In this document: one piece after another, positions 33,808 to 38,254 of the stretch
Numbering within the stretch: position 1 is the stretch's first letter
Layout: every line of letters begins with the position of its first letter
Source of the DNA: an uncultured Ignavibacteriota bacterium
GTDB taxonomy: Bacteria; Bacteroidota; Ignavibacteria; UBA10030; UBA8401
DNA: 40,706 bases
NCBI GenBank assembly: GCA_903861125.1
Contig: CAIOTF010000020.1
Span: 1-40,706, forward strand
Direction of reading: 5' to 3'
The notes under the pieces: model-generated
Seen by the model: only the letters and a program-made list of their open reading frames with translations
The model's database searches: none
What the model was told of the DNA's origin: nothing
Position numbers and translations under genes: made by a program

Positions 33808-33816
33808 GTATTCTCC

Positions 33817-33823
33817 GTGTTAC
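33817..33823 (-). promoter_or_regulatory. candidate NikR half-site before nikR
   Basis: GTGTTAC on the plus strand (GTAACAC on the gene strand) equals the half-site reported for many non-enterobacterial NikR boxes. It lies between the candidate -10 and the ribosome site. A second half-site at the expected 14-16 base spacing is weak, so the box is incomplete by eye. Confidence 0.4.
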
Positions 33824-33833
33824 GATTATGATA

Positions 33834-33862
33834 AAAGTAGCACTATTTCTAACGGAATTCAA
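33834..33862 (-). promoter_or_regulatory. candidate promoter of the nikR operon
   Basis: On the minus strand TTGAAT (33862-33857) and TACTTT (33839-33834) are 17 bases apart, about 27 bases before the nikR ATG. The candidate NikR half-site lies just downstream. Confidence 0.45.
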
Positions 33863-33942
33863 CACATGAGAAAATTGGAAAGACAAACTATTGGAGGGAA
33901 ATACTGGTGAAGTTGAAAAATGAATGCTGTTGAACTGCTATC

Positions 33943-35925
33943 TTAGAATGATAGCAGTGTTGAAATATAAACATTTCTTCCTGGTCGGGGAATGTTTCCC
34001 CAGTCCAAGTGATCCCGATAATTGGCATCAAAAAGATTCTCTACCCCGCCGTTCAGAGATATTTGAAGATTTTCAATCAGTAAAATATAGCTTGCCCTGA
34101 TATGTGCAAGAAGATACGATGCGGTTGGTTGTTCACCGACAGATGTTCTAATGCTGTTTTGTGATGAGGCATATTCCAATTCACTTTGGACCGTGATATT
34201 CTCGAATCGATATCGGACAGATGTAAGATTTTTTAATGGCGGAATAAGTTGCAAAGGTTTTGAATCATTATCGGTTCCTTGAACATATTTTGTTGTTGAT
34301 ATTATTTCAAGATTATCTTGAGGATGAAGAATCAATGAAAACTCTAAACCCCTCATTGTTGCGAATGGAAGGTTGTTGAATAGTTTCACACCATGAGCTC
34401 CAATCGTCATTGCACTTAATGTCCCATCCTTAGCACCGATAATGAAATTGTTGATTCGATTGAAAAAGCAAGTTCCTTTTATCTGCATGAACTCTGTTTG
34501 AAAGCGTCCCGATATTTCTGATTGTAAAGATTGTTCATTCTGGAGTTCCGGATTTCCTACATAATCAAATCCATCAAAACGGTTGTAAAGGTAGAATCCA
34601 TACGATTCATTGATTGTCGGCATCCGCTCGGCATACCCAACAGAAAAAATCGCATTAATATTTTCTGAAAAACGATTGGTCAGATTCATCGTTCCGCTTT
34701 TTAACAAAGTATTTATTGCATTTTCTGTGTGATATCCAAAAACAGAAAGTTGTTGTCTACCAAATTCTGAAGTTACTAACGAATTGGTGTTTTCTAACCT
34801 TCCATTAAACGAAGCATTAATGTCGTTTGAAATATCCCATTCATCCTTAACAAAGATTGCCCCCGATATACGGCGTGCATCCGGCAGTGTCAGCATGAAC
34901 ATTGGAAGGCCGATGGGAGGATACATCGTCATTTCGGCACGAACAAAAGTTCGATAGAACTCTGCCCGTAATTGTGTCAAGTGATTGTCAAGAAAATCAA
35001 ATTGAGTATTGATATAGCTGCCATACGTTGTGCTCCAACCCGGCATATCCATATGCATAGGAATAGACGGACGATGTGTATCATCCATAAAATGAGTGAT
35101 GTCGTTTCGGTAAGCTTTAACTTCGCATTGTGAAAGAATATTGTCGTTGTTTGTAAAGTTGTATGACAGTGAATATATTCTTGCTTTCGCATATCCTACA
35201 TCCATCGTTAAAGCAGGATAGCCAATGTTCCATCCGTCATCAAAGAGCATATCAGATTTTAGTTCGTCATTCTCCGAAAGTTGATATCTTCCCGCAAGCG
35301 ACAGATTTGTTTTCTCATAATACGAAAAGGGAATTGTTGCGCCATTTCCGGCATTGTAATTATTACTCTTCCTATAAACACCATTGATCAAAAGAGCATA
35401 TTGAGATGTGCCAGTATTTACTGAGATATTGCCATTATATGCTTTTGCTGATGACTGATATCCAGAACCTGCCGAAACCTTTGTTTCAGAAAACATTGGT
35501 TCAGCAAGTTGAACATTCACTGCACCGCCAAGTGAAGAGCCAAATACGAGACCGTTTGTGCCTGTGGCGATATCAATACTATAGAGATTTTGCGGTTCGA
35601 CATAAATCGTGATCGGATCCATTTTATCGGTGCAGGCGCCATGGATATGCATTCCATCAATGGTAAGACTTACTTGTCCGGCGGAAAAACCGCGAATACT
35701 TGGTTCAAGTCCATAATTCCCTCGTCGGATCATTTGCACGCTTCCGGAGCGAGAAAGAATTTCTTCTGTTGTTGCAGAAGTATTCGCCTTGTAAAAATCA
35801 ATTGTGGTATCGCGGTGTTCAGAATTTCTGATGACGATTACCTCATTTAACGGATAGATTTTTGCTGTATCAGGTTGTTGAGCAATAACAACTTCAAACA
35901 GAAAACAGATGATGATATATTTCAT
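33943..35925 (-). CDS. TonB-dependent receptor of the OprC-like copper group
   Basis: ATG 35925 gives a signal peptide (MKYIIICFLFEVVIAQQ); the ORF extends 12 codons further without a good start. The plug includes IRGFSAGQVSLTIDGMHIHGACTDKMDP. Its C98-x3-M102 (CTDKM) matches the CxxxM motif that binds copper in OprC of Pseudomonas. A Met/His cluster (PMHMDMPGW) lies in the barrel. Length is 660 aa with a terminal Phe (STLLSF). It follows a YtkA/FixH-like lipoprotein gene with Met/His-rich copper-like sites. Copper is the best guess for the ligand; I have not aligned it with OprC, and the family motif was recalled rather than searched. Confidence 0.85.
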   Translation of the reverse strand: MKYIIICFLFEVVIAQQPDTAKIYPLNEVIVIRNSEHRDTTIDFYKANTSATTEEILSRSGSVQMIRRGNYGLEPSIRGFSAGQVSLTIDGMHIHGACTDKMDPITIYVEPQNLYSIDIATGTNGLVFGSSLGGAVNVQLAEPMFSETKVSAGSGYQSSAKAYNGNISVNTGTSQYALLINGVYRKSNNYNAGNGATIPFSYYEKTNLSLAGRYQLSENDELKSDMLFDDGWNIGYPALTMDVGYAKARIYSLSYNFTNNDNILSQCEVKAYRNDITHFMDDTHRPSIPMHMDMPGWSTTYGSYINTQFDFLDNHLTQLRAEFYRTFVRAEMTMYPPIGLPMFMLTLPDARRISGAIFVKDEWDISNDINASFNGRLENTNSLVTSEFGRQQLSVFGYHTENAINTLLKSGTMNLTNRFSENINAIFSVGYAERMPTINESYGFYLYNRFDGFDYVGNPELQNEQSLQSEISGRFQTEFMQIKGTCFFNRINNFIIGAKDGTLSAMTIGAHGVKLFNNLPFATMRGLEFSLILHPQDNLEIISTTKYVQGTDNDSKPLQLIPPLKNLTSVRYRFENITVQSELEYASSQNSIRTSVGEQPTASYLLAHIRASYILLIENLQISLNGGVENLFDANYRDHLDWGNIPRPGRNVYISTLLSF

Positions 35926-35984
35926 AGTGTTTTTAATAAGAAGCGAGGGAAGGCAAAACACCTTTCCTCGCTGTATTATTCCCT

Positions 35985-36815
35985 TTATAATGTAACGTCG
36001 AAATACATAGTTGTGTCTACAACGGCTCCATTTTTATAAATATCGAGATTAATTCTCCAGTCACCGGTCATGGTAAAATTCACTTTCCCTTTGTAATGCC
36101 CATTTGCTGTATGGGTTGGATTGACATTGTTCGGTGAACCATGTCCCATGGAAGGCATTTCCGGTGTGATGACAACAGTGTATGTTGAATCAAATGGAAA
36201 TGACATCATTGCCATGCTTTTATGGATTGCAATTTCAAAATCATTGATGCCGACTTTAAGACTTGAAGGGCGCAGATAACTAATAAATAGTTTTGCACTG
36301 TCATTTTTAGCCACAGTAGATTTTAAAATAGCGGGAGTTTTATCCGCTACTGTAACCGGTAGAGTTGCTATGCCTTCGAGATTGGAGGTATGATTATGAA
36401 CTTCAACATCGACAGTCCACGATCCGCCCATTGAAGCCATAAGAAAAACAATTTGACACGGGAAGAGGCTGTTTACTGCAATTGTGCTGGTAGGATTTTC
36501 ATATGGTGCAGAATGTTTCATCATTCCCATATCCATCATCGGGTCTAAATGAATATGTGCATCCGTGACCAATGTTCCTTTTGCAGAATCGAGCACCGCA
36601 ATGAAAACGTTATTATATCCTGTAAAGAGTGCAGTTTTAGACCAGAGCTGCACTTTCGTCGCCGCACCGGCCGCATATCCTTCAGCAATCTTTGTTAATC
36701 CTGCAAACGGGTCAGTAGGATTCACAGGAGCAAGTGGGTTATCTTCCTTCTTACAACCTGAGAAAACAATTAGTGCAAAAAACAGTATAGCAAATACTTT
36801 TTTCTGTAAAAGCAT
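35985..36815 (-). CDS. lipoprotein with YtkA/FixH-like domain, Met/His-rich
   Basis: Lipoprotein signal with lipobox VFSGC near residues 17-21. The mature part has two beta-rich regions. The first includes YNNVFIAVLD and an unusual HIHLDPMMDMGMMKHSAP stretch (about 90-107). The second includes FEIAIHKSMAMMSFPFDSTYTVVITPEMPSMGHGSP and ends HYKGKVNFTMTGDWRINLDIYKNG. The second is close to the YtkA/FixH pattern (MPSMGHG, then G-x-Y-x-G-x-V-x-F-x-M-x-G-x-W). Such Met/His clusters commonly bind Cu(I)/Cu(II). It sits before the OprC-like receptor in the same operon, and probably binds copper in the outer membrane or periplasm. AAGGAA supports the start. Confidence 0.75.
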   Translation of the reverse strand: MLLQKKVFAILFFALIVFSGCKKEDNPLAPVNPTDPFAGLTKIAEGYAAGAATKVQLWSKTALFTGYNNVFIAVLDSAKGTLVTDAHIHLDPMMDMGMMKHSAPYENPTSTIAVNSLFPCQIVFLMASMGGSWTVDVEVHNHTSNLEGIATLPVTVADKTPAILKSTVAKNDSAKLFISYLRPSSLKVGINDFEIAIHKSMAMMSFPFDSTYTVVITPEMPSMGHGSPNNVNPTHTANGHYKGKVNFTMTGDWRINLDIYKNGAVVDTTMYFDVTL

Positions 36816-36866
36816 AGAAGTTCCTTTTCTAATAAATAAATAGAGATAAATAGTTGAAATAGAATT

Positions 36867-37271
36867 TCAGCTATTGGTTACGGAGTTTTGGAGTAAAACA
36901 TTATAAATAGAGTGATGTTTCGGAGGTTGGTTAATATCGTCTGGAAAACCGGGGTGTGTATCGCCAATTGAAATATCGGCGAATGTAATATCTTCTTCGC
37001 TTTTGAGTGAACTGAATTCTAATTCTAACGCTATAAACGAGAGAAGCTCTGGTGTTCGAACCTCAATTTTAGGGGATTCATTTTTTGGTGTTTGATCTTC
37101 AACTTCTCGAACGTGACACTGACCACAGCAATCCGGATTTTGTTTGTTGACGCAATATGTTTCGGCAATATAATCTTTGTATACAAAGTAGGTCGCCCAA
37201 ATAATAGGACCACTCAAGACATACATCGAAAAAAAGAATAACAAAATTGCCGAGAAGAATTTTTTCATCAT
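36867..37271 (-). CDS. small membrane-anchored protein with a Cys cluster, copper-operon leader
   Basis: 134 aa. One N-terminal membrane helix (about residues 5-30), then YKDYIAETYCVNKQNPDCCGQCHV with C40, C48, C49 and C52. This resembles the short motif C-x-N-K-x(4-6)-C-x-G-x-C found in small proteins near copper TonB receptors in Bacteroidota. A His pair (PPKHHSIYN) is at the C-terminal end. It stands first in the minus-strand group with the lipoprotein and OprC-like receptor. A role in binding or handing on copper is plausible. There is no named family I can give with confidence. Confidence 0.65.
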   Translation of the reverse strand: MMKKFFSAILLFFFSMYVLSGPIIWATYFVYKDYIAETYCVNKQNPDCCGQCHVREVEDQTPKNESPKIEVRTPELLSFIALELEFSSLKSEEDITFADISIGDTHPGFPDDINQPPKHHSIYNVLLQNSVTNS

Positions 37272-37465
37272 ATCATTGGTAAATTATCGAAAACTTCAAA
37301 TAGATGCAATGTATTCTCTCGTGCATGATGACATACAAACTCATGATATTGATTTATCGGTTTGATGTAGTTACATTAATCGAAATTAAAAGATCATTTT
37401 CATATAAATACGAATTGTTAATGTTTCAAGTTCACCATAAATATTTTAGCGAGTAGGATGTGTCT

Positions 37466-38254
37466 ATGAAAATAAACAGAGCAATGTCAATAATTTGTAT
37501 TCTAGGTTTTTGCTTTAAATTTGTAATTGCGCAAGATCGTCCATTTCTTTTCACCGTAGTTCCATCATCAGATGCAACTACACGTCAATTAAGTTTACAA
37601 TATGATGCAGTCTACGGACGTGAAACATTTGAGCCTATCGGTGGTGATAATGTTGAACAAAAAATTGGTATGCAAACCAGTTTGAATGAATCAATAACAC
37701 TTGTTGGCAAAATTGGTTTTGCGATGAATAATATATCAACAAACTCTTCACAACATATTGAATTGCTTACCCAATTATTGAAATCACAAGATAGTAAAAT
37801 TGATTTATCAATCGGATCAGGATTCCTTCACGAATATAGAGGAACGAATGTTCTTTTTGGAAGAGTAATTGTCGGAAGACGGTTTGAATCATGGCAGTTA
37901 TTCGGAAACGTTCTTGTTGAAAAACCATTTTCACAGACCCGTGACCAACTTGATCTTTTCCTTACCACCGGTTTGTCCTATAATTATTCTCCATCAATCC
38001 AATTAGGAATTGAAGCTGTAGGTCAAGATCTTGAAGGATTCTGGGATGAGACTGAAGCGGAAGGTGGGGCAACAATGTTCATTGGACCAACAATGGTGGC
38101 GGCGATTCCTGCTACTTCATGGACTTTTACTCTTGGTGTTGGTCCAATTATTCGCGCCACTCAAAATATTTGGACAAGTATTGCTCCTAGGTATTTTAAT
38201 GCAACTAAAGACAATGGGTATATCATCCATGGAGCCATAAATATTGTAATGTGA
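37466..38254 (+). CDS. exported beta-barrel-like protein, divergent from the copper operon
   Basis: ATG 37466, preceded by TAGGATG, gives a signal peptide (SIICILGFCFKFVIAQ). The 262-aa product has many alternating strands with aromatic and glycine residues (LSLQYDAVYGRETFEPIGG, VGKIGFAMNN, GLSYNYSPSIQLGIEAVG, WTFTLGVGPIIRAT). These suggest a small outer-membrane barrel, as in the PF13557-type transporters or unknown porin-like proteins. It ends without a terminal Phe (INIVM). It starts 195 bases from the first gene of the divergent copper-type operon and may share its control. Substrate unknown. Confidence 0.65.
   Translation: MKINRAMSIICILGFCFKFVIAQDRPFLFTVVPSSDATTRQLSLQYDAVYGRETFEPIGGDNVEQKIGMQTSLNESITLVGKIGFAMNNISTNSSQHIELLTQLLKSQDSKIDLSIGSGFLHEYRGTNVLFGRVIVGRRFESWQLFGNVLVEKPFSQTRDQLDLFLTTGLSYNYSPSIQLGIEAVGQDLEGFWDETEAEGGATMFIGPTMVAAIPATSWTFTLGVGPIIRATQNIWTSIAPRYFNATKDNGYIIHGAINIVM

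Follow-up and report, generated by a model that had tools for sequence, protein, structure and literature searches.

The window analyzed here, 40,706 nucleotides (nt) of contig CAIOTF010000020.1 (positions 1 to 40,706) from an uncultured Ignavibacteriota bacterium, carries three adjacent genes on its minus strand that very probably let the bacterium take up copper. In the order of transcription, they encode a small protein with a cysteine cluster (here, the leader), a YtkA-like lipoprotein, and a TonB-dependent receptor of the OprC type. We give a probability of about 0.68 to the reading that this is a copper acquisition operon in which an OprC-type receptor and a copper-binding lipoprotein are preceded by a leader that acts as a regulatory nascent chain. 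The order of the genes, the fold and site of the receptor, the conservation of the lipoprotein and the leader, and the spacing within the leader are observed in the sequences themselves. The three open reading frames (ORFs) lie where an earlier note had placed them (33943 to 37271), all on the minus strand, and the motifs that it listed (CTDKM, MMDMGMM, MPSMGHG, and a C-x7-CC-x2-C cluster) are all present in the translations. Its proposal of a copper uptake system held up (through the OprC site, structural matches, co-occurrence of the genes, and a link to nos genes). The metal it chose is probably right, while its role for the small protein, that of a periplasmic copper carrier, is probably wrong.

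The receptor contains the Pfam domains PF07715 and PF00593, and its top NCBIfam model is TIGR01778 (TonB-copper; E = 9.5e-44). Searching the PDB sequences with the receptor returned six distinct sequences, all of them OprC (at E 0.001; best E = 2.2e-14). In the alignment, GACTDKMD of the receptor lies on GACPNRMD of OprC and THFMDD on DHIMDN, and all four ligands of the published CxxxM-HxM copper site of OprC (C143, M147, H323, and M325; PMC8610252) are matched. CTDKM, which the earlier note had taken for the CxxxM motif of a copper receptor, thus falls on the OprC site, and HFM, absent from that note, completes the second half. Named genomes were scanned with the receptor alignment; the counts for named loci given here refer to the 80 top-ranking loci from a longer, capped list. 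The putative ligands C110, M114, H290, and M292 are invariant in an alignment of 43 receptors (including 34 of the 80 named receptors and eight others), as are M104, M253, M304, M306, M344, and M346, which are reminiscent of the methionine track of OprC. The predicted structure (mean predicted local distance difference test score [pLDDT], 88.2) was compared with known structures by Foldseek, and the best 28 of the 844 matches were all OprC, with a template modeling (TM) score of about 0.8 at about 19% identity across the structural alignment. The window receptor has the same fold and the same four copper ligands as OprC of Pseudomonas aeruginosa and NosA, but unlike them, it is paired with genes for a YtkA-like lipoprotein and a leader with a Cys cluster and a Pro-Pro ending.

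Both halves of the motif were found in 77 of the 80 named loci (two of the three failures are matched frames that break early) and in none of the 22 ORFs of at least 600 amino acids in a control set of 20 loci from the receptor's own genome, 19 chosen as receptor loci and one as an oxidase locus. Chance was considered as the origin of the copper site and is ruled out by the OprC alignment, the invariance, the Foldseek result, and this control. A sequence cannot reveal the substrate, and the receptor might import a soft metal other than copper, or copper bound to a chelator instead of free copper ions, as CrtA of Bordetella pertussis takes up chelated copper (PMC12914433). CrtA, as described in that source, is without conserved Cys or Met, whereas here the four OprC ligands and further methionines are invariant, and we regard such a substrate as very improbable.

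The lipoprotein belongs to the YtkA-like family (PF13115; E = 1.8e-12; 48.2 bits versus a gathering cutoff of 25.9). Across 45 lipoproteins (including every second one of 75 and six others), the lipid-bearing Cys, M94, M96, H101, M126, M220, M223, H225, and M249 are invariant, which places MPSMGHG and part of MMDMGMM in the conserved core. The predicted structure is all-beta past the signal (pLDDT, 92.7); its Foldseek matches are generic, many of them immunoglobulin-like, with TM scores below 0.35, and the one weak match among PDB sequences is a copper resistance protein (E = 0.011). The lipoprotein is probably copper binding. As the sequence after its lipid Cys (C-K-K-E-D) resembles the published K-(D/E)2 signal for the surface export of Bacteroidota lipoproteins (PMC5080379), it may sit outside the cell, or it may face inward to the periplasm, where the earlier note's hand-over role would place it; a loose pattern of this type fits 15 of the 45 lipoproteins. 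BtuG of Bacteroides is a surface lipoprotein working with an outer membrane uptake system, as described in PMC6143338, but its ligand is different, and the window lipoprotein is YtkA-like with Met and His residues and only a possible surface export signal.

The earlier note would have given up its operon if the three families did not co-occur elsewhere, and they do. With the receptor as bait, the leader was found upstream in 75 and the lipoprotein in 79 of the best 80 named Bacteroidota loci, and the order leader-lipoprotein-receptor is kept in all 75 loci with a leader. The sole locus without the lipoprotein has just 333 nt upstream. These lipoproteins were counted by profile; a strict text pattern recognized 49 of 80. 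The leader pattern (three Cys, a Pro-Pro no farther than 27 residues from the end, and 40 to 95 residues between the two motifs) occurred in 0 of 80 named loci on the minus strand and in 0 of 80 downstream. Genera with the three-gene module include Flavobacterium, Pedobacter, Pontibacter, Brumimicrobium, and Aquimarina, among others. The copper uptake operon is real and conserved, of a type widespread in Bacteroidota.

The co-occurrence with copper enzymes that the earlier note had suggested checking is found in the window's own class. The receptor was detected at E 1e-40 in 31 of 245 genomes of this class (own genome included), and 20 loci were fetched from other genomes. In 10 of these 20, the receptor is flanked by NosL-like sequences with NosD, NosF, NosY, and often NosZ, while nos similarity was seen in 5 of the 80 named loci (weak in L206; NosZ only in L187). 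Pfam runs on the nos genes covered L257, where NosZ, NosL, and NosD were confirmed, and NosL of L261. In L254, L257, L258, and L261, the lipoprotein and the receptor lie within nos clusters, between nosL and nosD. A NosA-like receptor in this position could serve nitrous oxide reductase; NosA itself was proposed to do so, and a later report saw no effect (PMC8610252). Elsewhere, the genome of the window has a nosZ match, two COX1 matches, and SCO-type matches.

The leader was characterized in two sets of relatives. A search of 296 genomes of the phylum with the small protein found matches (E up to 0.01) in 76, one of them the genome of the window. The 92 matches elsewhere, spread over 75 genomes, were fetched together with their downstream DNA. 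Ninety gave usable ORFs; L047 and L065, where a stop within the matched stretch had opened the frame, were left out, although the ORFs of the shorter loci L018 and L032 carry the Pro-Pro. The selection did not ask for Pro-Pro, and 82 of the 92 search alignments stop short of it; nevertheless, all 90 relatives have Pro-Pro near the C terminus. A C-x-G-x-C motif was recognized in 88 of them, and in all 88, the last Cys lies 62 to 74 residues before the Pro-Pro. The second set consists of the 75 leaders of the named loci, where the spacing found was 63 to 71 residues. When the window leader is aligned with 69 of the 74 leaders that have a start codon (near-copies dropped), C40, C48, G50, C52, P116, and P117 are invariant; for the Cys and Pro residues, this invariance is partly built in because the leader pattern required them. 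A count blind to Pro-Pro gave the same picture: of 75 Cys cluster ORFs directly preceding the lipoprotein gene, 74 have a Pro-Pro ending, and the remaining one (L147) is another frame beside a leader with Pro-Pro. Among the other predicted genes of the named loci, only 4 of 683 have Pro-Pro within the last nine residues. The Pro-Pro is often preceded by Phe at position −2 (55 of 90 relatives from the phylum search and 67 of 75 named leaders) and His at −1 (49 of 90 and 52 of 75, respectively). All four Pro codons are used at this site in the 75 leaders, which indicates that selection acts on the amino acids.

In L246, L248, L249, and L231 to L234, the Cys cluster takes different forms, such as CxACC and CHCGESCGCGC. 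These leaders keep the FHPP ending and a spacing of 68 to 70 residues, and from such comparisons, the sensor part seems exchangeable between lineages. Neither Pfam nor NCBIfam matched the window leader, no convincing family was found there for the leaders as a group, and a PDB search with the leader profile gave no match. Membership in DUF2946 was rejected, as 70 leaders together matched 19 Pfam families at E 0.1 and DUF2946 was none of these (the library's content for DUF2946 was not checked).

The small protein could instead be a secreted or membrane-anchored copper chaperone fed by the receptor or the lipoprotein, close to what the earlier note had proposed. It has a Cys cluster, a strongly hydrophobic stretch precedes this cluster in 62 of 74 leaders (by a hydropathy test only), and its gene adjoins copper genes in many loci. 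For a chaperone, however, a terminal Pro-Pro at a narrow distance from the Cys cluster has no evident role, the sequence between the two is variable, and the gene stands first in operons of differing content and is missing from four loci that have the receptor and the lipoprotein. We therefore consider a carrier function improbable.

The genes behind the leader bear on the signal that it would read. The first gene downstream (n = 88) encodes a receptor plug domain in 35 cases, MbnP in 23, YtkA in 7, and SCO1 in 3; the second (n = 87) encodes a MauG-type protein in 23, a plug domain in 11, PepSY_TM in 5, and SCO1 in 5. CxxxM and HxM occur in the expected stretches of 34 of the 61 ORFs longer than 550 amino acids among the first four downstream genes. 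The leader thus accompanies copper genes of several kinds, and MbnP/MauG genes in Bacteroidota (L039 to L130) may be under the same control. Cys clusters also form disulfides or bind zinc. A nascent-chain leader that senses thiol redox, secretion status, or another metal would fit this general chemistry and the varied Cys patterns of the family (CxACC and CHCGESCGCGC), but the downstream genes are repeatedly copper related (MbnP, MauG, OprC-type receptors, and SCO1), and we give a noncopper signal little credence.

The layout of the leader is that of CruR and CutF, nascent-chain regulators that respond to copper, and it appears to be a variant of their type. In the CruR-BfrG(CrtA)-bp2921 operon of Bordetella pertussis, the leader comes first with a copper receptor behind it, and CruR, like the window leader, combines a Cys motif with a C-terminal Pro-Pro at conserved spacing (PMC9426467). 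The RAPP motif of CruR keeps the operon on without copper and CXXC turns it off with copper (PMC9426467); arrest at RAPP was later demonstrated in vitro (PMC12992588). CruR is a DUF2946 protein with 45 residues between CXXC and RAPP, whereas the Bacteroidota leaders give no DUF2946 match, mostly end in FHPP, and have 62 to 74 residues. The CruR operon also differs in content, with another receptor family, a PepSY_TM protein, and, in the description of PMC12914433, no such lipoprotein.

CutF is a small exported protein that shares with the window leader a Cys motif, a C-terminal Pro-Pro, and a position upstream of copper genes; its spacing is again 45 residues, compared with 62 to 74 in the Bacteroidota leaders (PMC9973294). 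As described there, copper switches a multicopper oxidase on, and sensing takes place during export. The authors allow about 30 residues for the ribosome and 17 for the membrane and on this basis assign the 45-residue spacing to the SecY vestibule. If this count is applied to a spacing of 62 to 74, the last Cys would lie 15 to 27 residues beyond the membrane. The same source defines a CutF-like set with Pro-Pro near the end that heads metal operons, with many members from Bacteroidota and some before TonB-type genes (PMC9973294). Of the filters given for this set, the window leader passes those for length (<150 amino acids; here, 134) and for a same-strand gene within 1,000 nt (here, 51 nt) and fails the one for Pro-Pro in the last 15 residues, as 17 residues follow its Pro-Pro. 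For the further filter, a SignalP-type signal peptide, the observation is the hydropathy count of 62 of 74 relatives given above. Given OprC/NosA, CruR-BfrG, and the CutF-like lists as close precedents, the statement of the earlier note that no pathway of such a form had been described was too strong.

For the leader, we infer metal binding, arrest, periplasmic sensing, and the sign of control beyond what sequence comparison gives. The receptor would bind copper at the CxxxM-HxM site and, energized by TonB, carry it through the outer membrane, and the Met and His ligands of the lipoprotein would bind copper beside it, as a surface catch or in a periplasmic takeover. While the leader is being synthesized and exported, the ribosome would slow at the C-terminal Pro-Pro, with the Cys cluster, about 65 residues farther out and past both the ribosome and SecY, meeting periplasmic copper. 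At low copper, the stalled ribosome would hold the downstream genes on; copper binding would free the ribosome and turn uptake off. For the sign we followed CruR, in which stalling keeps the operon on when copper is absent and release shuts it off when copper is present, as this would be economical for an uptake operon.

Several observations weigh against this reading. The receptor's 150 bits are below the TIGR01778 cutoff of 472, and by sequence, it is OprC-like but outside this equivalog. Twelve of 74 leaders fail the hydropathy test for an export segment, and the leaders of L093 and L122, the two of the 90 without a recognized Cys motif, keep the Pro-Pro while their Cys cluster is partly lost; they may respond to a different signal. 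The leader is missing from four named loci that have the lipoprotein and the receptor with 5 kb upstream (three Sphingobacterium and one Flavobacteriaceae), and it was found in 11 and not found in 9 of the 20 class loci; the L258 leader, which overlaps the reading frame of NosL, is doubtful, and L254, L256, L257, and L264 are leaderless beside nos genes. As reported in PMC9973294, fusions with the proline motif of CutF alone gave no stalled form. The window copy is itself atypical, with N-Q and not F-H before the Pro-Pro and with 17 residues after it, compared with 1 to 5 in 69 of 75 relatives (at most 8 in 74 of 75 leaders of the named loci, and 14 in one). The arrest in the window leader may therefore be weak.

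This atypical ending would also be explained if the window leader had decayed after horizontal transfer, leaving the operon constitutive or otherwise controlled. A quick tree places the window receptor in a group with 33 receptors of named genomes, of the Bacteroidia (support, 98), apart from 17 receptors of its own class, which suggests that the operon was probably acquired horizontally; the receptor was found in none of the two genomes of the same genus and none of the six of the same family. On the other hand, the frame, the Cys cluster, the Pro-Pro, and the 64-residue spacing are intact, and another class member (G208; L129 and L261) likewise has an 18-residue tail after the Pro-Pro. Decay is an unlikely explanation, though one to be kept in mind.

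Both gaps within the operon show predicted RNA structure, and no known RNA family was found in the region at the gathering threshold. The gap between lipoprotein and receptor was measurable in 47 of the 75 loci (within L131 to L210); z was below −2 in 91% of these, and 42 of the 47 have stems of at least 9 bp. Together with the stem of the window, these 42 stems have 35 different 5′ arms and are therefore divergent in sequence. They lie a median of 15 nt before the receptor start, with a T-rich, terminator-like stretch following in 19 of 47, and this stem-loop may set lipoprotein expression above that of the receptor. Structure is somewhat stronger in the gap between leader and lipoprotein than in other gene gaps of these loci (69 versus 90 gaps; P = 0.0002 by a Mann-Whitney test), and complementarity between the leader stop and the lipoprotein start is stronger within than across loci (75 loci; 59 nonredundant loci; 54 loci of the other set). 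In a first control, complementarity between the lipoprotein stop and the receptor start was the same or greater (56 loci), and the result was initially set aside for this reason; the separate stem-loop at that junction may explain it. A better control, with pairs of other genes on the same strand (75 of 90), gave a smaller effect: the difference was −0.48, and 150 of 5,000 permutations were as good, compared with −1.93 and 0 of 5,000 for the leader-lipoprotein junction. A CutF-like stem is possible in the relatives, while the hairpin predicted in the window is local to the stop codon.

The coordinates of all features are collected in Table 1. The leader and lipoprotein genes are separated by 51 nt and the lipoprotein and receptor genes by 59 nt if the receptor starts at the ATG at 35925, which, judged on position and sequence, is likelier than the GTG at 35961. 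The nearest ORF upstream of the leader begins at 37460 on the plus strand and is divergent, so the leader gene heads the transcription unit; this neighbor (37460 to 38254; 264 amino acids) has no Pfam or NCBIfam match. Downstream, the nickel system that the earlier note saw next door has a genuine NikR (NF003381; E = 2.7e-51), together with a further receptor (by Pfam) and genes that look like ABC (ATP-binding cassette) transporter parts, a separate nickel-type unit. The nikR gene lies on the same strand, 135 nt past the end of the copper operon (33808 to 33942), and transcription may therefore continue to some extent into the nickel genes.

Table 1. Positions of the three genes, their motifs, and the predicted RNA structures in the window
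Feature	Position	Strand	Remarks
Leader protein gene	36867..37271	-	134 aa; first in operon; hydrophobic segment at N terminus, then Cys cluster and Pro-Pro + 17 residues
Leader Cys cluster C40-x7-C48-C49-x2-C52, putative metal sensor	37116..37154	-	
Leader Pro-Pro codons, putative arrest site	36921..36926	-	residues 116-117; 64 residues past last Cys
Predicted local hairpin over leader stop codon	36849..36875	-	region z -2.2, modest
YtkA-like lipoprotein gene	35985..36815	-	276 aa; all-beta model; lipid Cys = residue 21, then KKED
Lipoprotein MMDMGMM	36519..36539	-	residues 93-99; M94, M96 invariant in 45; H101 just after
Lipoprotein MPSMGHG	36138..36158	-	residues 220-226; M220, M223, H225 invariant in 45
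Stem-loop between lipoprotein and receptor genes	35942..35972	-	12 bp, 5-nt loop; 16 nt before receptor ATG
OprC-type TonB-dependent receptor gene	33943..35925	-	ORF from GTG 35961 (33943-35961) = 672 aa
Receptor CTDKM, plug half of predicted copper site (C110, M114)	35620..35634	-	residues 110-114
Receptor HFM, barrel half of predicted copper site (H290, M292)	35086..35094	-	residues 290-292

In titles and the beginnings of abstracts of the open-license literature (supplements excluded), we found neither the leader-lipoprotein-receptor operon nor its OprC site, nos linkage, long spacing, or receptor-proximal stem-loop, nor a description of copper uptake in Bacteroidota. As supplements were outside this search, the CutF-like lists may well include some of these leaders. 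A survey of RAPP/RGPP leaders reports copper-related ones as missing from Bacteroidota (PMC12992588), and the FHPP ending could explain this lack.

We give even odds to a wider proposal, that the leaders form a phylum-wide group of nascent-chain copper sensors in Bacteroidota, mostly ending in F-H-P-P without RA. Their modular Cys sensor, 62 to 74 residues out, would be read fully in the periplasm, whereas for the published CruR and CutF, where the spacing is 45 residues, reading takes place in the cytoplasm or the SecY vestibule; the geometry of the leader thus predicts the site of copper sensing. If the proposal is true, copper import would be switched off, with the OprC-type receptor, the YtkA-like lipoprotein, and MbnP/MauG, when periplasmic copper suffices. 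The Cys sensor would vary by lineage while the ending and the spacing stay, making the leader a modular periplasmic metal switch on translation. The three-gene module occurs in named genera, the predicted ligands of the receptor are directly mutable, and there is a link to nitrous oxide reductase clusters.

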